Shown: in pieces, positions 23,255-43,405 of the stretch
How the letters are laid out: the number at the start of each line of letters is the position of its first letter
How positions within the stretch are numbered: position 1 is the first letter of the stretch
From: a virus
Virus record (IMG/VR): IMGVR_UViG_3300025789_000004
Span: 1 to 59,551 of that record
Reading direction: 5' to 3' (one strand)
DNA: 59,551 nt
Notes under the pieces: generated by a model
Databases searched by the model: none
What the model was told of the DNA's origin: nothing
What the model saw: the letters and a program-made list of their open reading frames with translations, nothing else
Position numbers and translations under genes: made by a program

Positions 23255-26200
23255 TTACACAGGGTACAAGGGCGTTTCTTGCTTGTTGGGGTACGTCTTC
23301 ATGCCTTCAATTTCTTGGATGCGTTCGGCGGATCTGGTCAGCAGGCCAATATCTCGCAGGTGCCTGATCGACATAGACACAGTATCCACCAAGTCGTCAT
23401 GGCGGCCCTTTGGAAACTGACCGACTTGCGTGATCACTTCTTCGGTCCACTTCTTGTCCGGGGCGTAGATCATCCCTTCCGAGAACAAGTGCTGCACCGA
23501 ATACAGCCGCGCCATTTTGTCAAGACTTTTCGGATCCGACAACTGCACAGCAAACCCTTCATTGCCGTACAGCCTCCGCATTTCCTGCGCCACAGAGATC
23601 CCGCTGGCCTTGTTTTCAATCAGCAACTTGTCAACCTTCAGCGCCTTGCAGGTCTTGGCAACCTTCTCCACCAGATCATGGAACTCCAGCCGCTCGGTCC
23701 ATGCGTGCATCATCATGACCTTCGGCGCTGACTCATTGTACGCCCGGTCAATATACTGCGGTCGCCCATCCGCCCCAATCGTCCTGTGCGCCACGGCACT
23801 CGCATCTGTAGTGAATATGCCCCAGATTGTCATCGCAGATGGGTCATTGCTGGTTTTGGACGTATATGCCGTATCCAACGATGCCACAATGTAGTCCATC
23901 GGCGGAAAGGTCGAGTCCGGCCACAACTTCCACCAATCGCGCTTGATGATCCCACCGCCTGCAGGCTCAGGACGCTGCTGCAACTGTCCAGCCGCCATGA
24001 ACGGCCCCAATGCGCGCTCCAGCCGGGTTACTTCCTCATCGCCAAAACGATCAGGCCACAGCAAGTCACCCTCTTTCTCGCGTGGATCTTCCCAGCCAAT
24101 ACTGTTCTTGAACGCCCGATCAGCTTCATACCGCATTGGCAAACACAAGTGCGTCCAGCCAGCTGACTCTTTTTCCAGAATGTGCCCAGTCAAGTCATTC
24201 TCAGCCAATCTCTGCTGAATGACAATCATCGCCCCGGTCTTCTGATCGTTAAGACGGGTGGACATCGTGCCGTCCCACCACTCAATAGTCGATTCAATAG
24301 TTGCTTCAGAAAACGCTTCAGAGGCTGAGTTGGGGTCATCTACAATTATGCAGTTATGGGCAAGTACGCCATTAGCAAAGAAGTTGTGGCATTCTTCAAC
24401 TTGAATGTCATAGACTTTGTTCTTTGGACCGCTATATCGCTCAATTGAGCAGATGACATCATTTTGCCATGATGATGCAGGCGATGACACGATTCGCACA
24501 GCATTATCAAATTTTCCGGCACGTTGTTCCTGCTGTTCTCGTCTATGTGATGCGCGTGCAAAATTGATTTCTTTCGATTTCCGCGCTGCACCTTCTCGTC
24601 CACCAAACCACACGCCTGACAAGCGAACTCGTCCCGCTCCAAAACAATCACTCGCATATCCCGGAACTGGTTGGAATACCGGCCTAGTTTGGAAAAATTG
24701 GAATTGTGCGCACCCTTCATGCGATCCGAATGATCCGCATCCGCACAAGACGGACTGCAATAGATTGTCCAACCAGCAAATTGCGCTTTGCAACGCGGGC
24801 ATTCTTTTTTCTTGCGCTTGTCCCAACGTAATTTTTGATGGCACTCGTCCGAGCACACTTCGGAGTGCCTGTGCTTGCGCAGTTTTCCGCAAATTACACA
24901 CGCTTTTGTGTTTTTTGTGGAATGGTGTTGTGAGCAACATTTTTTTGAGCAGTATGCGTCCCGGCTTCCTTGTTTTAAGGCTTTGCGTGCCTCGTAAAGA
25001 TGCTTTTGCGTTTCTACCCCGCAGTTGTCGCATAGAAGGTTGACGATCATTTTCCGACCGTCTTTGAACAATAATCCCGTCTCCAATCCCCAATTCACAA
25101 GCTGGGACATATCCTGTCCCCTGCACGAAAATTGGATGGTCCCCAGTACACTCGACGGAAATTCCTGAAACCGTGCGTATTTCATAAAGGGTATCCGATT
25201 CAAGAAGGCGGGTTGCCAACACCCGTTTTTCTACCACCTTACCCCGTGAATGGTCAAACGATAATACTGTATCCCCTACAGAAACCTTGGAAATTGGTAC
25301 GTCTCCAAACGGCGTGGACACGTTAATCCATCCGGGAAAACATGATCCGCCTTCACCAGTCACTGCCGCACCAACTGAAGTAATCAGTCGTTCGCCACCT
25401 TGGTCATTACTAAAGCGTGACTTAGTATTCTGATCCGAATTGATCTTGAATCTTTCTCCCCACAACTTCTGGTACCATGGAGACTCAATCAATCGACGGC
25501 ATTTCACAGAGTCGCGCAACACCAACTGATTGGCATACGATGCGCAAAGAAACTGCACGCCCGGACCAGACGTCGGTGAGCGATGCTCTTGTGCCCATGT
25601 CCATGCGGGAAACGCCACAGATGTAATGGTTGAATTGTGCGTAGGGATGAGATTGCGGCCAATCAAATAAAGCCCATCTGGCGAATCTACTTGGATGCAA
25701 TGGCCAAAAAGCCCTTGCGGTTCAAGCGTCACGGACTTGAGGCCAATTGCTCGCTTAGGGGCAAATCGTTTAATTTGCTTGCGTGGAAGGGCAGTAGGAA
25801 TAGCCATTGTAGGCTGGAATGCTACTGTCCAGCATTCCTTTTTCCCTTGAATGCCTGACGTGCTCATCCGGGGCTGTGTGCTAGATACAACGGCGCGCCA
25901 CCCAAAGCTACGCACAAGCTCCGCAACGCCATCAATAATTTTCTTATTCGCATTGGAAAAATGGCACCTGTTATTCTTATCGACGCAGCCATCAGTGTCA
26001 ATCAAGCCAGCCAAAAGTTCAAGGCGTTGGCTTATGGTCCCCAAAAGATAGAGGTTTGGAATATGCTTGTCATTAAGCACGCCTGCCTCGCGCAAGCCGT
26101 TTTTGAGATTACTAGAAGCAAAGGACGTTGTGATTGCTCCAGTCCTTTTGTGTTCCCACGAGACACTGATGGAATACCCCAACGACACAATTTTGCTGAT

Positions 26201-26902
26201 GCACTCAGTATCTCGCGGGCTGTGGGTAATGCACGCCTTCCCCGACGATCCATCCCCTAGCCACGCGCCCAAGACGTAAGGATGGACAGGCAATTCAGCG
26301 CCCTTGTCAGGCATCTGCAAAGGCTCAACTAGCGGAAGTTGGTGCAACGCCCTACCCCCACTAGATGCAGCTTTGGGTTTCCCCTTTGTTTGCCCCCACC
26401 GGCCACGGCGGGGCTCCAAAAACTGCCGAGTCTCTACTGTTTCCCACAACCGGCTCATGCGATTGAACAGTGTCCATTCGTGATTTTCGTGGCAGTAGAA
26501 CACACTGCCATCAAAAAACTCAACGCGGACATTGGAAGGTGTCTTATCTGATACGGCAAGCACTTTGACTGGCTTACCAGATGGGTGAAACACAAAATCA
26601 CCTCGGGCCAAATCCCCGTGCGTTTTCCATCCTTCTGTAGTAAAAACTTCAGTGTTATCAGCTACTTGCTTGCCCATTCTGGGAGGAATGTTGATGATCA
26701 GCCGCCGTGTCTCTCCATCCACCACTGCCTGCAGATGTTCAGCCACTGCCTCAATTGGCCAACCATCTTTCCACGGGCTGGCGTCAATGTATTTCCAAGC
26801 ATTCACCAAGAAATAGTATAGGCTTTCTTCGCAGTCAGCACGATCAAGCGCTTCCAACTGCTTAATAGGATTAAGTAGTGATGGATCAAATTCTGTGTCC
26901 AT
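23255..26902 (-). CDS. terL: Terminase large subunit precursor with two inteins
   Basis: The open frame encodes 1215 residues, but only about 540 are terminase. Extein 1 (1-78) ends in IPPRMGK of Walker A. Intein 1 is residues 79-423; extein 2 (424-520) resumes with Ser and carries the ATPase core up to GEGGS. Intein 2 is 521-850; extein 3 (851-1215) starts CIIVDDP, the Walker B region, then the coupling motif IQQRLAENDL. The RNase H-type nuclease domain has ASLDTAY, LLIENKASG and RHDDLVDT. The spliced enzyme would cut concatemers and pump DNA through the portal. It starts at the ATG overlapping the terS stop (TAATG). Both inteins interrupt catalytic motifs, so activity should require splicing. 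Confidence 0.93.
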   Translation of the reverse strand: MDTEFDPSLLNPIKQLEALDRADCEESLYYFLVNAWKYIDASPWKDGWPIEAVAEHLQAVVDGETRRLIINIPPRMGKQVADNTEVFTTEGWKTHGDLARGDFVFHPSGKPVKVLAVSDKTPSNVRVEFFDGSVFYCHENHEWTLFNRMSRLWETVETRQFLEPRRGRWGQTKGKPKAASSGGRALHQLPLVEPLQMPDKGAELPVHPYVLGAWLGDGSSGKACITHSPRDTECISKIVSLGYSISVSWEHKRTGAITTSFASSNLKNGLREAGVLNDKHIPNLYLLGTISQRLELLAGLIDTDGCVDKNNRCHFSNANKKIIDGVAELVRSFGWRAVVSSTQPRMSTSGIQGKKECWTVAFQPTMAIPTALPRKQIKRFAPKRAIGLKSVTLEPQGLFGHCIQVDSPDGLYLIGRNLIPTHNSTITSVAFPAWTWAQEHRSPTSGPGVQFLCASYANQLVLRDSVKCRRLIESPWYQKLWGERFKINSDQNTKSRFSNDQGGERLITSVGAAVTGEGGSCFPGWINVSTPFGDVPISKVSVGDTVLSFDHSRGKVVEKRVLATRLLESDTLYEIRTVSGISVECTGDHPIFVQGTGYVPACELGIGDGIIVQRRSENDRQPSMRQLRGRNAKASLRGTQSLKTRKPGRILLKKMLLTTPFHKKHKSVCNLRKTAQAQALRSVLGRVPSKITLGQAQEKRMPALQSAICWLDNLLQSVLCGCGSFGSHEGCAQFQFFQTRPVFQPVPGYASDCFGAGRVRLSGVWFGGREGAARKSKEINFARASHRREQQEQRAGKFDNAVRIVSSPASSWQNDVICSIERYSGPKNKVYDIQVEECHNFFANGVLAHNCIIVDDPNSASEAFSEATIESTIEWWDGTMSTRLNDQKTGAMIVIQQRLAENDLTGHILEKESAGWTHLCLPMRYEADRAFKNSIGWEDPREKEGDLLWPDRFGDEEVTRLERALGPFMAAGQLQQRPEPAGGGIIKRDWWKLWPDSTFPPMDYIVASLDTAYTSKTSNDPSAMTIWGIFTTDASAVAHRTIGADGRPQYIDRAYNESAPKVMMMHAWTERLEFHDLVEKVAKTCKALKVDKLLIENKASGISVAQEMRRLYGNEGFAVQLSDPKSLDKMARLYSVQHLFSEGMIYAPDKKWTEEVITQVGQFPKGRHDDLVDTVSMSIRHLRDIGLLTRSAERIQEIEGMKTYPNKQETPLYPV
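24346..25050 (-). CDS. HNH endonuclease encoded out of frame inside intein 2
   Basis: The protein has 234 residues from the ATG at 25050 (M-I-V-N-L-L-C-D-N-C). Several Cys pairs follow (YCSKKCC, CVICGK, CPRCKAQF, YCSPSC), then an HNH core with CQACGLVDE, HAHHIDENSRNN and LCESCHRLHHHG. The last ~40 residues are read from DNA that also encodes the intein C-terminal block, and the frame stops seven bases past the intein. The frame differs from the terminase frame, which is open throughout. The ribosome site before the ATG is weak (CGGAAA). It may be translated independently or by frameshifting. The open frame extends upstream to 25203. Confidence 0.85.
   Translation of the reverse strand: MIVNLLCDNCGVETQKHLYEARKALKQGSRDAYCSKKCCSQHHSTKNTKACVICGKLRKHRHSEVCSDECHQKLRWDKRKKKECPRCKAQFAGWTIYCSPSCADADHSDRMKGAHNSNFSKLGRYSNQFRDMRVIVLERDEFACQACGLVDEKVQRGNRKKSILHAHHIDENSRNNVPENLIMLCESCHRLHHHGKMMSSAQLSDIAVQRTKSMTFKLKNATTSLLMAYLPITA
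24353..25342 (-). other. Intein 2 of TerL, inserted before Walker B
   Basis: Residues 521-850 of the precursor. It begins CFPGWINVSTPFGDVPI (block A), includes ECTGDHPIFVQGTGYV (block B, with the TxxH-type pair), and ends VYDIQVEECHNFFANGVLAH plus the terminal Asn before Cys (blocks F and G). The real splicing domain is about 97 + 40 residues, a normal mini-intein size. The 194 residues between (24470-25051) read as unrelated low-meaning sequence, because another frame there encodes an HNH endonuclease. Confidence 0.9.
25634..26668 (-). other. Intein 1 of TerL with LAGLIDADG endonuclease, inserted in Walker A
   Basis: Residues 79-423 of the precursor, splitting the P-loop between Lys and Ser. 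The N-terminal residue is Gln (QVADNTEVFTTEGW), a less common but known class of intein start. The homing endonuclease motifs are YVLGAWLGDG (near residue 210) and LLAGLIDTDG (near 296). The C-terminus LIPTHN followed by Ser is a standard block G. The single-frame layout with a dodecapeptide endonuclease is classical. Confidence 0.92.
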
Positions 26903-34945: not shown

Positions 34946-35761
34946 ATGGGTATCCTTTCGACCATCTCGAAGCCGGAGAACCGCGCTCCGATTCTGACAT
35001 TGTGCGGTGACGCTGGTACAGGCAAGACCAGTCTGGCTGCAACCTTCCCCAAGCCCATTTTTATCCGCGCAGAAGATGGCATGACGTCCATCCCTGTGAA
35101 GCAGCGTCCCGATGCCTTCCCGGTCCTGCGCAATCCCGATGATCTGTGGGAGCAACTGATTGCCCTGCTGCAGGAAGATCACGACTACCAAACCGTGGTG
35201 ATCGACAGCGTTTCCGCACTGGAAACGATGTTCAGCAAGGCCGTTCTTGACATGGACGGACGCGCCAAGACGCTTGCACAGGCATTGGGCGGCTATGGTG
35301 CTGGCGTTTCTGCGGTTGCTGCAATGCACACCCGTGTTCGCAAGGCGGCTGGTCTGCTGAACGAGCGCAAGAACATGACCGTGATCTTTATCAGCCATGC
35401 CGATCTGGAAACCATGCGGTTGCCGGATACGGATGACTACATGCGCTACAGCCTGCGGCTTATGTCCAAGTCCCTGCCGCCGTATGTTGACGATGTGGAT
35501 ATGGTCGGGTTTGTCCGTCTGGTATCTGCCCTGCGTGGTGACGACGGCGACCGCAAGAAGGTCATTTCCAATGGCGACCGCCAGATCGTTTGCCATGCCA
35601 CGGCTGCCTCTGTGTCCAAGAACCGCTTTGGCATCACCGAGCCGCTGGACTGCCCACCGGGTGTAAATCCGCTGGCCGATATTCTTGGGTTTGCCAAAAC
35701 CAAGTCTCCCAAGCCGCCCAAGCACACTGATGACGTCGATTTTTCTGACTTTGCGGAGTAA
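34946..35761 (+). CDS. Sak4-like RecA-fold ATPase
   Basis: The protein has 271 residues from the ATG at 34946, which follows GAGG at seven bases. Walker A is GDAGTGKT at residues 21-28, and Walker B is YQTVVIDSVSAL. The core has the pattern of phage AAA_24/Sak4 single-strand annealing proteins (FPKPIFIRAEDGM early, then VIFISHADLE). Sak4 proteins act with an SSB partner in recombination and replication, and the next gene is SSB-like. The upstream in-frame extension is unlikely to be translated. Confidence 0.85.
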   Translation: MGILSTISKPENRAPILTLCGDAGTGKTSLAATFPKPIFIRAEDGMTSIPVKQRPDAFPVLRNPDDLWEQLIALLQEDHDYQTVVIDSVSALETMFSKAVLDMDGRAKTLAQALGGYGAGVSAVAAMHTRVRKAAGLLNERKNMTVIFISHADLETMRLPDTDDYMRYSLRLMSKSLPPYVDDVDMVGFVRLVSALRGDDGDRKKVISNGDRQIVCHATAASVSKNRFGITEPLDCPPGVNPLADILGFAKTKSPKPPKHTDDVDFSDFAE

Positions 35762-35766
35762 TTAAT

Positions 35767-36312
35767 ATGTCTTTCTGGAACCTCTCTGACAACTCGTCGG
35801 CCAAGACCCACGAAACCACTTTTGAATCCGCCAATGGTGACGGCTTTGCCCCGATCCCTGATGGCACTGTGCTGAATGCCGTGATTGACGAAGCCAAGTG
35901 GCAGACCCCTCGGGATCGTTCGGAGGAATTCATCTCCCTGCGCTGGACCGTGGTGGACCACCCTTCGTACAAGAACCGCAAGATCTTCCAGAAGCTGTGG
36001 GCCGGTGAAGACCTCGACCCTGCCGTGGATGACAAGGAAAAGGCCAAGAAGAAGCGCGACAAGGCACTGCGCATGCTGGGCGTTATCAATGCCAACTGCG
36101 GTGGCAAACTGCCTGATCGCCGTCCGTCGTCGGATGACCTGACCCTGTACCTCACCAACAAGAAGATGAGCATCAAACTGCAGGTCTGGGAAATTGGCGA
36201 CAACAGCGGCAACTGGATCAGCGCGGTGTCCGAAGCGACTAACGTGGTCGTCACCGCATCGCCCGCTCCGAAGAAGCGCCAGTCGGGCAGTGAAGATGAA
36301 GTGCCGTTCTGA
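35767..36312 (+). CDS. SSB-like protein (DUF669 type)
   Basis: The protein has 181 residues. It resembles DUF669 phage proteins: PIPDGTVLNAVIDEAKWQTP, EEFISLRWTVVDHPSYKNRK and the basic DDKEKAKKKRDKALRMLGVI. The acidic-hydrophobic tip SEDEVPF resembles the C-terminal tail by which bacterial SSBs recruit partners. It lies five bases after the Sak4-like gene and likely works with it on single-stranded DNA. Confidence 0.78.
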   Translation: MSFWNLSDNSSAKTHETTFESANGDGFAPIPDGTVLNAVIDEAKWQTPRDRSEEFISLRWTVVDHPSYKNRKIFQKLWAGEDLDPAVDDKEKAKKKRDKALRMLGVINANCGGKLPDRRPSSDDLTLYLTNKKMSIKLQVWEIGDNSGNWISAVSEATNVVVTASPAPKKRQSGSEDEVPF

Positions 36313-36929: not shown

Positions 36930-36980
36930 ATGTATACCATTAAAATTGTAGCAAAGGTAGCGGCATTTGATCATGGATAA
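36930..36980 (+). CDS. Possible 16-residue microprotein
   Basis: It has a good AGGAG site and reads MYTIKIVAKVAAFDHG. Its end overlaps the exonuclease start, which could couple translation. Short length keeps confidence low. Confidence 0.3.
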   Translation: MYTIKIVAKVAAFDHG

Positions 36981-37854
36981 TTCGCCAGAACAAAGAACAC
37001 CAGAATGGTTTGCGCAGCGCAAGGGTCGGGTTACCGGCTCGGCTGTTGGGGCTATCTTGGGTGTCAACACATATATGACACGCTGGGACGTCATGCGCCG
37101 TATGGTGCGTGAGGCTCTGGGTGCGCCTTCCGAGTTCGCAGGCAACGTGGCTACGGAATGGGGAACCAACAACGAAGCAGGGGCGCTGGTCGAGTTCCAG
37201 ATGGAATCCGGCCTATCCGTGACGCCGGCACCGTTCGTGATGTACGAGGATTGGCTTGGAGCCTCTCCAGACGGCTATGTGAGCGATGGCGGCCTAGTGG
37301 AGATCAAATGCCCCTATGGCATCCGCAAAGCCTCTCCTGTGCCCTTCAAGACGCCCCAGAGCCAACCAAGCTACATGGCGCAGATGTACGTGCAGATGTT
37401 CGTCACGAATACCGAGCATTGCCACTTCTTCCAGTGGACGCCCAACGGCACGCGGTACGACGTGATCCATCAGAACATGGACTGGATCGCTACCAACATC
37501 CCCCGGCTGAAGCAGTTCCATGCCGAATATCTGGATGAACTGAAGAATAACGCCAATGAGCATCTGGGTCCGAAGCAACCGGAGATCGACACTCCGCAGG
37601 CGCGGGCTGTCATGGAAGAATACCAAGCCGTCATTGCTGATATAGAAAGGGCGACTAACCGAAAGAAAGATCTTTTGGAACAACTTGTTAACATGACCAG
37701 TGGAAACAAGTCGGTCACGATTGCCGGTCACAAACTGACAAAAACTGAACGGCAGGGAGCAATCAGCTACGCCACGGCCATTAAAAAGCTGTTGCCCGGT
37801 GCTGACCTTGAGCCATATCGCGGCAAGGGCACTAGCTATTGGCAGGTGACATGA
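36973..37854 (+). CDS. YqaJ-type recombination exonuclease
   Basis: The protein has 293 residues from the ATG at 36973. It has the lambda-exonuclease/YqaJ signature: RTPEWFAQRKGRVTGSAVGA at the start, then DWLGASPDGYV and LVEIKCPYG, giving the D...E-x-K catalytic core. A C-terminal coiled segment ends the protein. It would resect double-stranded DNA ends for the Sak4-like annealase and SSB-like protein encoded just upstream. Confidence 0.88.
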   Translation: MDNSPEQRTPEWFAQRKGRVTGSAVGAILGVNTYMTRWDVMRRMVREALGAPSEFAGNVATEWGTNNEAGALVEFQMESGLSVTPAPFVMYEDWLGASPDGYVSDGGLVEIKCPYGIRKASPVPFKTPQSQPSYMAQMYVQMFVTNTEHCHFFQWTPNGTRYDVIHQNMDWIATNIPRLKQFHAEYLDELKNNANEHLGPKQPEIDTPQARAVMEEYQAVIADIERATNRKKDLLEQLVNMTSGNKSVTIAGHKLTKTERQGAISYATAIKKLLPGADLEPYRGKGTSYWQVT

Positions 37855-37937
37855 TCCCTCCTGCCCTACGCCAATGGCTGTGGGATAATTTCGGGTGGGA
37901 CATATACGATTGGAACGATGGGGATTTGAGGTTTTGA
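37851..37937 (+). CDS. Trp-rich microprotein, copy 1
   Basis: The protein has 28 residues and starts in an ATGA overlap with the exonuclease stop. The core is LRQWLWDNFGW, then a Tyr-Asp-Trp stretch and an acidic stretch ending DLRF. Five of 28 residues are Trp or in Trp pairs. Its last codons contain GAGG, which serves as the ribosome site for the helicase at 37939. A second copy at 43057-43140 keeps the protein sequence while changing many third codon positions, strong evidence that it is a real gene. No known family is recognised. Confidence 0.8.
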   Translation: MIPPALRQWLWDNFGWDIYDWNDGDLRF

Positions 37938-37938
37938 T

Positions 37939-39744
37939 ATGTCATTCCAATTGCGTCCATACCAGCACGGGGCGGTTGACGCCGCCCTAGACTGGATGCG
38001 GCGGAGCATTGAGCCATGCCTGATTGATGCCGCACCTGCAGCGGGCAAGTCCTTTATGATTGCCGCCATTGCCTCGGAACTTCACCGGATCAGTGGCGGC
38101 AAGAGGATCTTGTGCATTGCCCCCAGCGCAGAACTGGTCAAGCAGAACGCCGAAAAATACAAATTTACTGGCGAGAAGTGCAGCATCTTCAGCGCAAGCG
38201 CGGGTGCAAAATCCGTCAAAAATGTGGTCGTGTTCGGCACTCCTGTCACGGTCAAAAATTCCATTGAAAAGTTCAAGAGAGACTATGCGGCTATAATAAT
38301 CGATGAATGCCATGGGCTGACCCCAACCATCAGGGGCATCATTGATGAAATGCGATCAACCCAGCCGAACCTGCGCGTTTTGGGCTTGTCTGGCACACCC
38401 TACCGCATGGGAAGCGGGTACATCTTCCATATGTGGCCAGATGGCCGATCCAATGGTGACGACACCACGCGGGATCCGTACTTTGTGAAATGCGTCTACC
38501 GCGTGTCGGCACGGGAAATGCTGGATCAGGGGTTCATTACCCCTATGGAAATCGGCAAGCCCGGTTCCAGTGGATATGACACCAGTGGCATCGAACTGCT
38601 GCCAAATGGAACCTTGAACCACGAGACCGTCGAGCGGGCATTCATGGGCCATGGCAGGCTTACGGCACAGATCGTTGCGGATGTCATTAACCAATCGCGC
38701 AGCCGTCCGGGTGGCGTCATGTACTTTGCCGCGACCATTGCGCACGCCAAGGAGGTGCTTGCCAGCCTTCCTGCAGAGAACTCCGCATTGGTGACGGGCG
38801 ATATGCCGACCAAGGAGCGTGATGCTATCATTCAGCGCTATCGTAATCAGAAGATCCGGCATCTTGTGAATGTGGGTACGTTAACCACCGGCTTTGACGT
38901 TAGCCATACCGAGACAATTGCTTTGTTACGTTACACTGAATCCGCCTCTCTGCTTCAGCAGATCATGGGCAGAGCGTGGCGCTTGCATCCGGGTAAGGAT
39001 ACGTCCCTGCTGCTGGACTATGCGAATAACATAGAGGAGCATATGCCAGATGGGGATCTGTACAACCCTGAAATCCGCGCAGGCAAGGCCAGTAAGAGTG
39101 AGCGGATTGACGCGGAATGCCCGGATTGCGGCAATATCAATCAGTTTTCATTGAATGCGGATTACAAGCATTATCAATATGATAAGCATGGATATTGCAT
39201 AGATGAGTTTGGCCTTCCTTTGATCAGCGAACACGGACCTGTCGCGCGGCACTTTGGCAGGCGTTGCTTTGGCATGGTCCGAACTGGGGATAAGGGGGAA
39301 TACGACAGGTGTGGATACTACTGGACGCACAAGGAATGCCTGCAGTGCTCTGAGAAGAATGACGTCACAGCAAGGCATTGCAGGTCTTGTAAGGCTGAGT
39401 TGATCGACCCCAACAAGAAACTGGTGTCCTTCGCGGAATACAAGAAAAACCCCAAGGCCAAGCAATGCGATATTGTCCTGTCCATGAAGGTAAGGGATAG
39501 TACGTCAAACAGAGGCAATAAGACCAAGCGGGTTGATTTTGTCACACCGTATCGCAAGTTCAGCGTGTGGTTTCTACCAGATGCCAGATATGACAAGGGC
39601 ATCAAGGATTGGCAGAAGTTCTGCCATTACACTGATGGCGGATCGCACGCGCCTCATACGATCATGTATCAGAAGGACGAGTCCGGATACTTCAAGATCT
39701 TGGGCTACGACATTCCGCCAGATGACGAGGGGAATACCAAGTGA
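37939..39744 (+). CDS. Superfamily 2 DNA helicase with C-terminal zinc fingers
   Basis: The protein has 601 residues. Motif I is APAAGKSF (near 34), motif II IIIDECHGL (near 117), motif III LSGTPYRMG, and motif VI IMGRAWRLHPGKD. The C-terminal third has Cys pairs (CPDCGNIN; CLQCSEKN with CRSCKAEL) for zinc. It resembles SSL2/RecG-like phage helicases encoded beside YqaJ and VRR-NUC nucleases. Role: unwinding or branch processing in replication and recombination. Confidence 0.87.
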   Translation: MSFQLRPYQHGAVDAALDWMRRSIEPCLIDAAPAAGKSFMIAAIASELHRISGGKRILCIAPSAELVKQNAEKYKFTGEKCSIFSASAGAKSVKNVVVFGTPVTVKNSIEKFKRDYAAIIIDECHGLTPTIRGIIDEMRSTQPNLRVLGLSGTPYRMGSGYIFHMWPDGRSNGDDTTRDPYFVKCVYRVSAREMLDQGFITPMEIGKPGSSGYDTSGIELLPNGTLNHETVERAFMGHGRLTAQIVADVINQSRSRPGGVMYFAATIAHAKEVLASLPAENSALVTGDMPTKERDAIIQRYRNQKIRHLVNVGTLTTGFDVSHTETIALLRYTESASLLQQIMGRAWRLHPGKDTSLLLDYANNIEEHMPDGDLYNPEIRAGKASKSERIDAECPDCGNINQFSLNADYKHYQYDKHGYCIDEFGLPLISEHGPVARHFGRRCFGMVRTGDKGEYDRCGYYWTHKECLQCSEKNDVTARHCRSCKAELIDPNKKLVSFAEYKKNPKAKQCDIVLSMKVRDSTSNRGNKTKRVDFVTPYRKFSVWFLPDARYDKGIKDWQKFCHYTDGGSHAPHTIMYQKDESGYFKILGYDIPPDDEGNTK

Positions 39745-40154
39745 CTTTCAAGGATCTGCCCTTTCCGGTCTACGGGGATCTCGGCTTTCGGGGGAAGTGC
39801 CCGCTGGAGTCGCAGGAGCAGGTGTCGTTCTTCAACAAGCTGCGCCATGAGCATCCAAATACATGGGGCAAGATCGCTGTTCACGTAAAGAACGAAGGGT
39901 TGGTCCGGGGCAGTCAGTTTTCCGCCATGCAGAAACATAGGGCGATGGGTATGGTTCCGGGCGCGCCAGACATTTTCATACCCGGCGAACGCACTTTGCT
40001 GATCGAGATGAAGCGCAAGGATCACACTAAATCGAAGCTTTCCACGGAGCAGATTGAGTACCTGTCGATGGCACAAGACGCTGGCGCGTTCGTGTGCGTT
40101 GCTCTGGGCGCTGTTGCGGCATGGATGGCATTTGAGGATTGGCTGGATGGCTAG
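39741..40154 (+). CDS. VRR-NUC domain nuclease
   Basis: The protein has 137 residues. The core MGMVPGAPDIFIPG with LLIEMKRKDH gives the PD-(D/E)XK motif of VRR-NUC nucleases, a family that includes structure-specific and Holliday-type nucleases. The Q-E segment near residue 25 (LESQEQVSFFNKLRHEHPN) is also typical. It overlaps the helicase by four bases and probably processes branched intermediates. Confidence 0.87.
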   Translation: MTFKDLPFPVYGDLGFRGKCPLESQEQVSFFNKLRHEHPNTWGKIAVHVKNEGLVRGSQFSAMQKHRAMGMVPGAPDIFIPGERTLLIEMKRKDHTKSKLSTEQIEYLSMAQDAGAFVCVALGAVAAWMAFEDWLDG

Positions 40155-40383
40155 TGCAATCATGCGGGCAATGCTGGACGTTCTGGAGGGCATTGTTCCT
40201 TATGATGATGCCGCTCCAGCGATACAAAGCTGGGCTAGATACTTCTTCTACGAGGCTGCGGACGAGATCATCACACTTCCGACAATTGAAGATCGCCGTG
40301 CGGCACTAAGCAATATCCCTGATGGACTGCGGCCATACGTAGAAGCCGAAGTTAGGCGATTATGGGCATTTTATAGGACATAA
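40147..40383 (+). CDS. Small helical protein, function unknown
   Basis: The protein has 78 residues from the ATG at 40147, which overlaps the VRR-NUC stop by eight bases. It contains SWARYFFYEAADEIITLPTI and ends AEVRRLWAFYRT. Its last codons run into the operator-like palindrome at 40376. No family is recognised. Confidence 0.65.
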   Translation: MASAIMRAMLDVLEGIVPYDDAAPAIQSWARYFFYEAADEIITLPTIEDRRAALSNIPDGLRPYVEAEVRRLWAFYRT

Positions 40384-40388
40384 TGTCC
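40376..40388. promoter_or_regulatory. Operator-like palindrome GGACAT-A-ATGTCC
   Basis: The arms are identical to those at 29030-29042. It covers the stop region of the preceding gene and sits about 55 bases before the next start. A TTGACT follows directly at 40389, so it may control transcription of the DnaA-domain gene group. Confidence 0.65.
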
Positions 40389-40400
40389 TTGACTACTCCC

Positions 40401-40409
40401 TGTGGATAA
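40401..40409 (-). promoter_or_regulatory. DnaA box upstream of the DnaA-domain gene group
   Basis: TGTGGATAA, a perfect complement of TTATCCACA, lies 12 bases after the palindrome and 35 bases before the start at 40444. It may allow autoregulation by the phage DnaA-domain protein or by host DnaA. Confidence 0.65.
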
Positions 40410-40443
40410 TCCAAAAGGGGTGCATATTCTACGGAGCGATACG

Positions 40444-40722
40444 ATGAACGATGAATTGGAATTTGCAGAGAAGATCCTGTCTGGCCGCTGGAGGCTGAAT
40501 GACCGCGTGGCCAAGGAGAGGGAATGGAAAGATGCCGCGCAAGGAGCGGTTGATGGCGATGTTTCTGAACTTGACCGTCTTCTGGATCTCGACGCGCTTT
40601 TCGATTTCTACCTTGACGAACCCCAGAGCGGAGAATGGGACTACACATTCAAAGATTGGGTAGAGGAGCAGGGCGGCTTCAAGGTGGCTGCAGCCCGTTA
40701 TTTGGAGTGGCATTCAAAGTGA
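40444..40722 (+). CDS. Small acidic protein, function unknown
   Basis: The protein has 92 residues, acidic and helical: MNDELEFAEKILSGRWRLND, then a Leu/Asp-rich middle (LDRLLDLDALFDFYLDEP) and an aromatic end. It is translationally coupled (GTGA) to the DnaA-domain gene and could be its partner. No family is known. Confidence 0.65.
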   Translation: MNDELEFAEKILSGRWRLNDRVAKEREWKDAAQGAVDGDVSELDRLLDLDALFDFYLDEPQSGEWDYTFKDWVEEQGGFKVAAARYLEWHSK

Positions 40723-41192
40723 GATTGAGGGTTATTGACATCATTCGCCATGCGGTAAGGGTTACTCGCATTCCCCAAGAGGCTTTGATTGGCCAATCTC
40801 GCTTGATGGATTATGTGTGGGTTCGGAAAGCTATTGTAATGGTGGCGCGCGAACAAGGGTATTCCTATCCAGACATTGGTCGCCTCATGGGCAAAAGGCA
40901 TCATACTACAATCATGCATGCCGACCGTTGCGCCAAGAAAATGGTAAAGGACGATGATCGTTTCGCCCGCCTTGTGGAAGAACTTCGGCGGTCTGAGCCA
41001 GAGTTCACTACGGAGAAGCGGACCATAGCAATTCCCCGCGCGAAGGAGCCAATTAGCGATGATTTGGTTGTTGTACGTATTCGTCCTGACGCTGATCCAG
41101 AAGAAAACTTAGGTCGCGATACGGACGCCATGCAGCGCAAGATTGGAAGTGATAGGCTATTGAATGCCCTATTGGCAGCGAGGTCGGCATGA
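40719..41192 (+). CDS. DnaA domain IV-like DNA-binding protein
   Basis: The protein has 157 residues from a GTG overlapping the previous stop. Residues 30-75 match DnaA domain IV: VWVRKAIVMVAREQGYSYPD, then IGRLMGKRHHTTIMHADR, which holds the His-Thr-Thr that reads the DnaA box. It lacks the DnaA AAA+ domain. The C-terminal 70 residues are basic and unassigned. Two perfect DnaA boxes lie in this genome, one in the iteron region and one just upstream of this gene group. It could recruit or block the host initiator. Confidence 0.87.
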   Translation: MRLRVIDIIRHAVRVTRIPQEALIGQSRLMDYVWVRKAIVMVAREQGYSYPDIGRLMGKRHHTTIMHADRCAKKMVKDDDRFARLVEELRRSEPEFTTEKRTIAIPRAKEPISDDLVVVRIRPDADPEENLGRDTDAMQRKIGSDRLLNALLAARSA

Positions 41193-41371
41193 TAGATCCA
41201 CAGACAATGCAATTGGCTCGAAAGATGTGCGCGGAGAGCAAGAAATGGGGCCGTGTCCCAGAGAAAGCTATCTTGAGCGGCGCATGGGATACGGGCCATA
41301 TAGTGCTACAGTATGTGCCTGATGCAGAGATAGCACTTATCAAGATGCAGCAGGAAAAGAGCGAAGACTGA
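41189..41371 (+). CDS. Small protein, function unknown
   Basis: The protein has 60 residues coupled by an ATGA overlap to the DnaA-domain gene. It has a basic N-terminal half (LARKMCAESKKWGRVPEKAI) and an acidic C-terminus. No family is recognised. Confidence 0.6.
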   Translation: MIDPQTMQLARKMCAESKKWGRVPEKAILSGAWDTGHIVLQYVPDAEIALIKMQQEKSED

Positions 41372-41391
41372 TTTTATTGGAAGGATATTTT

Positions 41392-42660
41392 ATGAGCGAC
41401 CTGCATAAATTTCTGCAAGACTGGCTTGATGCCGCGACCGGCAAGATCGAGAAACCGGCATGGTACGACGACGCCAGAGGCCTGTGCGCCTGCGCGTATC
41501 ATTGGGATCATGCGCGGGTCGGTACGCGCGCGTACCCAGAGCTTAAGCATCGCATAGGGGAAGATTTCAGGGATGCCTACATATACCCGTTCGGCGGGGT
41601 GAATCGGTTCAACCGGGATATTCGTGACGGCACCATGCACCTGAACAAGGAGCGCCTCGAGTGGGTCCGGAAGGTGCTGGCCGAGACCGTGTGGGGTGCG
41701 GTGATTGATATTGAGGTGGTCCGCGAGCGGCCCGACTGGCTGAAGGCCAGCGACATCTGCGATATCAAGGATCGTGGCGTGTGGACAGGCGGGTGCGGCA
41801 GGTTCAAGGCGTCGGAATGGTTCTGGCACAAGGACGTCACGCAGATCAAACTGCTGGCCGACCACGCCTACTACTCCGTGCAGGACTATAACAAGGAGCA
41901 CGGCACGTCCTACACGTACTGGGGCGGGCAGGGCGACAAGCCTGCCGACTGGGACGGCAGCGACGTAGTGCTGCGTAATGGCAAAACGGTCCCCAGCCCG
42001 GTCAGCTGGAGCCACCCTTGGGGGGGACACGGAGACGAAGAATTCGACGTCATCGGCTACACGCGCAAGGCCGATGACCTCAAGGACTTCCTGACCGAGT
42101 GGCTCGAGTGTGCGACATCGGATCGGGAAGGGCCGTTGTGGTTCAGTCGCGCGTTTGGCCTTTGCTACTGCGCGGAAATGTGGGACGGCTCGAAGGGGCG
42201 TAATGCTCGTGAGCCGCTTAAGGGAAAGCTCAGGGCGGACTTTCCCAGATTCCACCTCTTTCCCTTTGGTGGCAACGACCGCTATCTTGATGATAAGCAT
42301 GACGAGGCAGCGCACCAGAACCCTGAGCGCCTCGCGTGGGTCCGCAAGACGCTGGGCCTGACGCCTCCGGCCGAGGATACCGTTGCCGCCGGGGATACTG
42401 TGGACGCATATGCCGCGCTGCGGGGCATCCTCGACGAGGCGTACAACCAGTCCGCCAAGGGCGCGCGTCAGCGCGGCGCCACGATCTATCGCAACACCAC
42501 GGTCACCGGCATCGGCTTCCCCACCGGGCAGGCGATCAAGAAGATCACCGAGGCCGTGGGTATGCTGGGCCGGGGCGAGGGTGACGCAGCCGCGCGTGAG
42601 CTGCTGGGCGCCATTGTCTACACGGCGGCGGCGGTCAAATTCATCAGAGAGGGGGAATAA
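41392..42660 (+). CDS. Internally duplicated protein with central insert, function unknown
   Basis: The protein has 422 residues from the ATG at 41392 (AAGGAT upstream). Residues ~3-96 and ~228-321 are copies of one domain: FL-x2-WL-x2-AT, W-(Y/F), GLC-x-CA, R, FR, PFGG, then ERL-x-WVRK. Between them is a ~115-residue domain rich in Trp, Gly and Asp (SEWFWHKDVTQIKLLADHAY; SYTYWGGQGDKP). The C-terminal ~90 residues form a separate Ala/Gly-rich helical domain (TGQAIKKITEAVGMLGRGEG). Base composition is higher in GC than the replication genes. I recognise no family. Confidence 0.75.
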   Translation: MSDLHKFLQDWLDAATGKIEKPAWYDDARGLCACAYHWDHARVGTRAYPELKHRIGEDFRDAYIYPFGGVNRFNRDIRDGTMHLNKERLEWVRKVLAETVWGAVIDIEVVRERPDWLKASDICDIKDRGVWTGGCGRFKASEWFWHKDVTQIKLLADHAYYSVQDYNKEHGTSYTYWGGQGDKPADWDGSDVVLRNGKTVPSPVSWSHPWGGHGDEEFDVIGYTRKADDLKDFLTEWLECATSDREGPLWFSRAFGLCYCAEMWDGSKGRNAREPLKGKLRADFPRFHLFPFGGNDRYLDDKHDEAAHQNPERLAWVRKTLGLTPPAEDTVAAGDTVDAYAALRGILDEAYNQSAKGARQRGATIYRNTTVTGIGFPTGQAIKKITEAVGMLGRGEGDAAARELLGAIVYTAAAVKFIREGE

Positions 42661-42661
42661 A

Positions 42662-43060
42662 GTGAAATATTGGTATTACTGGAAAGGCGATGAAGTGCCG
42701 TTCGAAAGCATCGTCGGCAAGACATTCAGCTCCATCACTCACGACCAATCTGACGATCGGGTCGTCTTTCTGTCCAGCGAGGGGGAGACGTACGTCATGG
42801 GCCACTCTGAAGAATGCTGTGAGCACGTCTACCTTGAGGACACCTCGGGAGACCTGATCGACCTCGTGGGGACTCCGATCCTTATGGCGGAGAAGGTGTC
42901 GAACAAGGAAAACCCCAAAGAGCCTGAAGACGCCGAATACGGAGATTTCGAGTGGACGTTCTACAAGCTCGCGACCGTCAAGGGCCACGTGACCCTGCGC
43001 TGGTACGGCACCAGCAATGGGTTTTACGGCGTCGGTGTCGACTTCGTGAAGATGAAGTGA
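42662..43060 (+). CDS. DUF7448-like protein
   Basis: The protein has 132 residues from a GTG just after the previous stop. It matches a family recalled as DUF7448: DDRVVFLSSEGETYVMGHSE, then ECCEHVYLEDTSGDLIDLVG, WTFYKLATVKGHVTLRWYG and SNGFYGVGVDF. The family is widespread in phages and small mobile elements and has no proven function. Its stop overlaps the start of the Trp-rich microprotein copy 2. Confidence 0.85.
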   Translation: MKYWYYWKGDEVPFESIVGKTFSSITHDQSDDRVVFLSSEGETYVMGHSEECCEHVYLEDTSGDLIDLVGTPILMAEKVSNKENPKEPEDAEYGDFEWTFYKLATVKGHVTLRWYGTSNGFYGVGVDFVKMK

Positions 43061-43140
43061 GCCCCGCCCTCCGGCAATGGTTGTGGGATAATTTCGGCTG
43101 GGACGTATACGACTGGGCCGATGAAGATCTGAGGTTTTGA
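43057..43140 (+). CDS. Trp-rich microprotein, copy 2
   Basis: The protein has 27 residues from a GTG in a GTGA overlap. The core LRQWLWDNFGWD is the same as in copy 1 (37851-37937), and the C-terminus DLRF is kept. Changes are Ile to Val, Asn to Ala and Gly to Glu, plus many synonymous third-position changes. The trailing bases GAGGTTTTGATATG are identical to those after copy 1 and provide the ribosome site and start of the next gene. Confidence 0.8.
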   Translation: MSPALRQWLWDNFGWDVYDWADEDLRF

Positions 43141-43141
43141 T

Positions 43142-43405
43142 ATGGAAGATGATGCAATCCCCCAGTGGGCGCTGGACGAGGCCGTGAAGCGGCTGAATGT
43201 TGGCCGAACCCTTCATTACAACTGCGATATGCACAGCACACAAGTACTCGCCCGCATGATCGCGAAGCATGAGAATCCGCCAGTCGATTCTGACGAGGAG
43301 GCGGTGAATCGGATACTCAGGGCGGCTTTTCCGCGCGGCGTGATTTATTCTGAAGATAAAGCCCGCGCCCTCGCCCAATACAAGAAGGAGATTGGCCGTG
43401 GTTGA
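43142..43405 (+). CDS. Small protein, function unknown
   Basis: The protein has 87 residues, reading EDDAIPQWALDEAVKRLNVG at the start, then a helical middle (STQVLARMIAKHENPPVDSD) and a basic end. Its ribosome site lies in the Trp-rich microgene. No family is recognised. Confidence 0.65.
   Translation: MEDDAIPQWALDEAVKRLNVGRTLHYNCDMHSTQVLARMIAKHENPPVDSDEEAVNRILRAAFPRGVIYSEDKARALAQYKKEIGRG

Follow-up and report, generated by a model that had tools for sequence, protein, structure and literature searches.

The closest described counterpart of the peptides reported here is the C-terminal tip of the single-strand DNA-binding protein (SSB). Pockets that receive this tip make contact with the alpha-carboxyl group and side chain of the terminal Phe and with the side chains of the Asp residues, and in E. 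coli the exchange of the penultimate Pro for Ser makes binding about sevenfold weaker, with the KD for RecG going from 3.1 to 23 μM (PMC10164576). The SSB-tip site has already attracted study as a target for antibacterials (PMC3594151, PMC5872125). A second point of reference is given by the small phage proteins involved in host takeover (reviewed in PMC11323111).

We analyzed a viral DNA stretch of 59,551 nt, referred to here as the window (positions 1 to 59,551 of IMG/VR record IMGVR_UViG_3300025789_000004), which contains two copies of a Trp-rich microprotein gene (Table 1). A sequence-only reading of this DNA had described two reading frames of 28 and 27 codons, 5.2 kb apart, that start in ATGA/GTGA overlaps and share an end carrying the ribosome site of the next gene, and all of this is borne out. 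Copy 1 (28 codons plus stop) starts in the ATGA at 37851-37854, overlapping the stop of a YqaJ exonuclease gene, and copy 2 (27 codons plus stop) starts in the GTGA at 43057-43060, overlapping the stop of a DUF7448 gene; they lie 5.2 kb apart and follow the common pattern LRQWLWDNFGWD-x-YDW…DLRF. The shared end, GAGGTTTTGATATG, stands at both copies, and the same 14-mer is found in locus L095 before a homologue of the gene downstream of copy 2. With up to three mismatches allowed, the WLWDNFGWD pattern has two sites in the window and none in 100 shuffles. Between the copies, seven aligned codons differ silently, so that the "at least eight" given earlier is reached only if the ATG/GTG start is counted; the claim that few residues change stood, with five replacement differences, N-terminal offset included (pS 0.63, pN 0.11).

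Table 1. Coordinates of the two microprotein copies, their terminal elements, and neighboring genes in the window.
Feature	Position	Strand	Remarks
Sak4-like ssDNA-annealing ATPase	34946..35761	+	phrog_124 E 1.3e-37; AAA_24
Phage single-strand DNA-binding protein, C-terminus SEDEVPF	35767..36312	+	phrog_9002 E 1.1e-43
YqaJ/RecE-like exonuclease, directly upstream of copy 1	36973..37854	+	PF09588 E 6e-21; phrog_434
Microprotein copy 1	37851..37937	+	MIPPALRQWLWDNFGWDIYDWNDGDLRF, 28 aa, ATG start
D-L-R-F-stop codons, copy 1 C-terminus (proposed docking motif)	37923..37937	+	Family-wide tail conservation
GAGGTTTTGATATG in last codons of copy 1	37928..37941	+	Ribosome-site-like; ends on helicase ATG
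SF2 DNA helicase, directly downstream of copy 1	37939..39744	+	PF04851/PF00271; phrog_16
DUF7448 protein, directly upstream of copy 2	42662..43060	+	PF24240 E 4e-27
Microprotein copy 2	43057..43140	+	M(GTG)SPALRQWLWDNFGWDVYDWADEDLRF, 27 aa, GTG start
D-L-R-F-stop codons, copy 2 C-terminus	43126..43140	+	Family-wide tail conservation
GAGGTTTTGATATG, 14-mer closing copy 2	43131..43144	+	Ends on ATG of next gene
87-aa protein directly downstream of copy 2	43142..43405	+	Homologue follows microprotein in L095

Both copies fit a family core, LRx[FW]Lxx[NQ]FG[WF][DE], and the existence of this family is virtually certain. In IMG/VR, the pattern FG[WF][DE]…W…[DE]xxF-stop occurs in at least 118 contigs, and a profile-derived search, of the type that the sequence-only reading had suggested, returned at least 204 related stretches. 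Nearly all listed matches of this anchored pattern are short ORFs of the form MTLRQFLxDNFGWDIYDWxxDEIRF. Among the matches listed, the microprotein set comprises 141 instances with 92 distinct peptides of 23 to 30 residues, a conserved length that supports the earlier suggestion of an undescribed family; in 128 of the 141 instances the start lies in an NTGA context, which permits overlap with the upstream stop. A DNA pattern built from the core only gave seven loci, among which L002, L003, and L004 are clearly divergent members, while the relaxed core W-L-W-(D/E)-x-F-G-W mostly returned chance matches on low-complexity Trp runs and was discarded. Profile A1 found a match in all 46 carrier records that were searched whole, four of which hold two copies, showing that the duplication seen in the window is not unique. 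Two microprotein copies, 0.8 to 1.3 kb apart, were also observed in L091 and in each of the records behind L057 and L094.

Bacterial genomes almost entirely lack the family. In bacterial genome collections the microprotein was found in only two MAG contigs, both short and labeled Alphaproteobacteria and Phenylobacterium, seven further matches being off-frame or due to chance, and a profile search of 385 alphaproteobacterial genomes matched only the Phenylobacterium contig. The libraries and papers searched contain no description of the family, which is compact and is common in the viral collection. Profile searches of Pfam, NCBIfam, and PADLOC gave no family match to the microprotein (for the SSB OB fold, PF00436, there was no Pfam match above threshold in these 27 to 28 aa), and neither a sequence search of the PDB nor a Foldseek search of the PDB with the predicted model returned a match. 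The only PHROG match, phrog_13581 (Streptococcus phage PH10 ORF21, 111 aa), was judged to be a spurious local coincidence: the likeness is confined to a short internal match, FGWDEYDW, without the C-terminal motif, in a protein with coiled-coil-like sequence and a hydrophobic stretch at its N-terminus. Literature searches, with many subscription papers (the main phage small-gene survey among them) outside their scope, yielded no account of the peptide or of a phage SSB-tip mimic, and no such protein is named in the parts of the review PMC11323111 covered by a term search. Despite strong purifying selection on each copy, the protein-family libraries searched have missed this family of genes of about 25 codons, which occurs in at least 200 phage stretches.

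Given that the region overlaps the starts and ribosome sites of its neighbors, one could imagine a conserved nucleotide element that merely reads as an ORF and makes no protein, but the substitution pattern renders this scarcely credible. Over all pairs of 108 distinct microprotein DNA sequences, pS was 0.67 and pN 0.22 (pN/pS 0.32), internal stops were absent from 50 profile matches, and the reading frame is fixed in unrelated genomic contexts. Relatives with stops or frameshifts, named by the sequence-only reading as evidence against its claim of a real selected protein, were looked for and not seen among 124 instances from a search blind to the C-terminus, which adds to the strong support for this claim. 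From such selection and the absence of internal stops, we strongly infer that the microprotein is translated.

The end of the gene may serve a second purpose. The Arg codon at position -2 is AGG or AGA in 60 of 100 sequences, versus 8 of 103 for Arg at -22, a bias that fits the additional use of the last codons as a ribosome site where a gene follows. Ribosome-site-like sequence in the last codons and the usual translational coupling to the next gene, together with the very short, Trp-rich sequence and its fixed C-terminus, would also suit a role in cis, as a leader or ribosome-arrest peptide governing the gene that follows. We nevertheless consider this unlikely. A gene that could be so regulated follows in the window, but not in L038, L047, and L104, where the next genes are convergent and nothing is left to control in cis, and the stop in L047 is directly followed by an intrinsic terminator with a T-run; the terminator and the convergent genes disfavor a general leader role. 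Moreover, the following genes, whose comparison across phages had been proposed in the sequence-only reading, vary widely, falling into 40 clusters among 110. A recurrent protein of 60 to 75 aa (MTxGSKxFGRPxxY…ITRxR; cluster 2) lies directly downstream of the microprotein in 39 loci, its start often overlapping the last microprotein codons; neither Pfam nor PHROG gave a match for a representative.

The genetic neighborhood is dominated by DNA metabolism. Copy 1 lies in a cassette with the order Sak4-like ATPase, SSB, YqaJ, microprotein, SF2 helicase, VRR-NUC/Hjc-like nuclease, and DnaA-domain-IV-like protein. In other phages, where neighbors were named by sequence inspection without profile scans, the recurrent ones are Prim-Pol, DNA polymerase A, helicases, YqaJ, RecT, PD-(D/E)XK, VRR-NUC, and DnaA-C-like proteins. 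A PF00436 SSB was present in only 3 of 33 carrier records, other SSB types being known to exist. A 157-aa protein of the window (40719-41192, plus strand) consists of little more than DnaA domain IV (PF08299, E 1.4e-12), and DnaA-C-like proteins (cluster 6) occur near the microprotein in 20 other loci; a 422-aa protein (41392-42660, plus strand) is a tandem pair of phrog_2510 domains. The terminase large subunit ORF (1215 aa; 23255-26902, minus strand) contains two apparent inteins, the first at the P-loop with LAGLIDADG/Hom_end matches and the second before the Walker B motif with an Intein_splicing match at residues 543-850. Inside the region of the second intein, in another frame, lies an HNH endonuclease ORF (24346-25203, minus strand), possibly a nested homing endonuclease.

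The exact end of the peptide is constant. In order to avoid circularity, a second scan was run blind to the C-terminus, and all 124 instances that it retrieved end in [DE][ILVF]xF-stop, 120 of them at one length and four a residue shorter in the linker. The same holds for a wider set, in which 99 of 99 distinct sequences end in [DE][ILVMFY]xF-stop, with a core-to-end distance of one length in 98 and a residue less in one; no fusion or C-terminal extension was seen in either set. In the wider set, position -4 is D/E in 99/99, position -3 is I/L/V in 96/99, and position -5 is D/E in 74/99, while the penultimate residue is Arg in 91/99 and Pro in 1/99. A dedicated scan for more members with Pro at -2 found only L042, ending in EIPF. 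As a background, of 1027 ORFs from the same loci with a length of 150 aa or more, 6 have tails of the [DE][ILVMFY]xF type, the SSB of the window included. The stricter [DE][DE][ILVM]xF tail occurs in 9 of 1832 neighboring ORFs: the SSB of the window, the canonical SSB of L052, six copies of phrog_18187, and one protein of L162. That the microprotein ends so precisely, with acidic residues and Phe conserved, suggests a partner that reads the terminal carboxylate, and we propose that the free C-terminus is probably a docking ligand. Two other known types of motif were rejected: a BAM/DegS-type C-terminal Phe signal, given the lack of a signal peptide, and the bacterial sliding-clamp motif (QLxLF), whose spacing differs and whose Gln has no conserved counterpart. 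Independently of the microprotein, the 98-aa phrog_18187 protein, which ends in DDVPF and adjoins a RecT-like gene in L028, L036, L116, L126, L135, and L138, is a candidate uncharacterized phage ssDNA-binding protein, and the 211-aa protein of L162 ends in NDLDDDIPF, a perfect SSB-type tip.

The tails resemble those of host SSBs at most positions. Among 25 alphaproteobacterial SSB tails taken from genomes, 17 are DDEIPF, 6 are DDDIPF, and the rest are NDDIPF or DDDVPF (a 26th parsed tail belongs to a cyanophage SSB and has a different end). The 92 distinct microprotein tails, among the matches listed, include DDEIRF (13, the commonest) and DDDIRF (7), with DD[DE]IxF in 20. The contacts described for SSB-tip pockets (PMC10164576) correspond to the parts of the tail that are conserved in the microprotein. 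However, given that the change of Pro to Ser weakens SSB binding, a plain SSB mimic should keep the Pro.

An AlphaFold model was made with 51 homologues, copy 1 being read from an upstream TTG in order to reach 32 residues. In the model (mean pLDDT 82, pTM 0.45), residues of the LRQWLWDNF type form a single helix, accompanied by a loop and a short turn. The microprotein would accordingly be organized, in this prediction, as a short amphipathic helix (LRxWLWxNF), an aromatic loop (GWDxYDW), and an acidic tail with Phe as its free C-terminal residue. The tail may act as a docking ligand dependent on its terminal carboxylate and could enter the pocket for the SSB C-terminal tip (DDDIPF) on at least one DNA-metabolism protein of host or phage, with the aromatic helix and loop contacting the pocket-bearing protein or a second one. 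With the pocket occupied, the enzyme would either be denied to host SSB or be drawn to the phage, and the Arg that is conserved where SSB has its penultimate Pro might confer selectivity for a particular target.

The most specific reading is that the tail, resembling the SSB tip and carried on a mini-helix, is offered to an enzyme of DNA metabolism; we put it forward tentatively, as a possibility short of an even chance. It draws on the fixed, SSB-like tail, the replication and recombination neighbors, and the predicted helix. The main objection to it is the effect of the Pro-to-Ser change; in addition, the N-terminal 20 residues are equally conserved, which the tip alone does not explain, the likeness extends over 4 to 6 residues, and few carrier records have a PF00436 SSB. 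Slightly less likely still is the broader version, in which the family would be a stand-alone mimic of the SSB tip, widespread among phages and about 25 residues long, that enters the tip pocket of a host replication or recombination enzyme and so rewires the host SSB hub in infection, with the Arg for Pro setting the target. If SSB-tip pockets are indeed entered, this would be a case of phages using a minimal ligand against the SSB interaction hub.

The whole aromatic surface may instead bind another host or phage protein, acting in replication, transcription, or defense, as expected of a host-takeover microprotein whose C-terminal Phe motif is specific to that partner and whose likeness to SSB is coincidental. 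The conservation of the whole peptide rather than of the tail alone, the Arg at -2 as a conserved difference from SSB, and a compact gene that overlaps its neighbors and usually lies in the early region all point this way, and we give this explanation nearly an even chance, even though by itself it leaves the match of the tail to host SSB tips at most positions unexplained. Overall, binding of another partner is at least as likely as docking in an SSB-tip pocket. The sequence-only reading had taken the aromatic surface to indicate a protein or membrane partner, of which the protein is favored here, via the free C-terminus (which that reading had not highlighted), and the membrane is not. A small membrane-active or lysis-related peptide might be suspected from the richness in Trp, Phe, and Tyr and from convergent lysis genes that adjoin the microprotein in a few phages. 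We regard it as very unlikely, as nearly all members have a net charge of -2 to -5 with charged residues throughout and no transmembrane stretch, and the neighbors mostly belong to replication and recombination. For a protein partner, the fixed C-terminal Phe motif provides a directly testable prediction of the host proteins touched.

Among described phage proteins, a clear family member is Pan3_32 of Pseudanabaena phage Pan3 (UXO93954.1, 29 aa, MTLPPHLRAFLWLNFGFDEHEWGPDEIVF), annotated only as a hypothetical protein; it differs in its divergent tail, EIVF, and in its cyanobacterial host, and a homologue is present, unannotated, in Pseudanabaena phage Pam1. With the host-takeover proteins of phages, the microprotein shares small size and a mostly early location, while none of the described ones was found to be related in sequence. 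The likeness to the SSB C-terminal tip, and to phage SSBs ending in -PF, goes further, as both consist of acidic residues, Ile, Leu, or Val, one further residue, and a final Phe whose carboxylate is free, and the microprotein also lies beside enzymes of SSB-interacting type. Measured against the tip motif, it has the C-terminal Phe, the acidic residues at -4 and -5, and the branched hydrophobic residue at -3, so that judged by sequence it falls outside the motif on one feature, the penultimate Pro. Unlike SSB, it stands alone at 23 to 30 aa, without an OB fold or long linker, and combines Arg at the penultimate position with a conserved aromatic N-terminal half.
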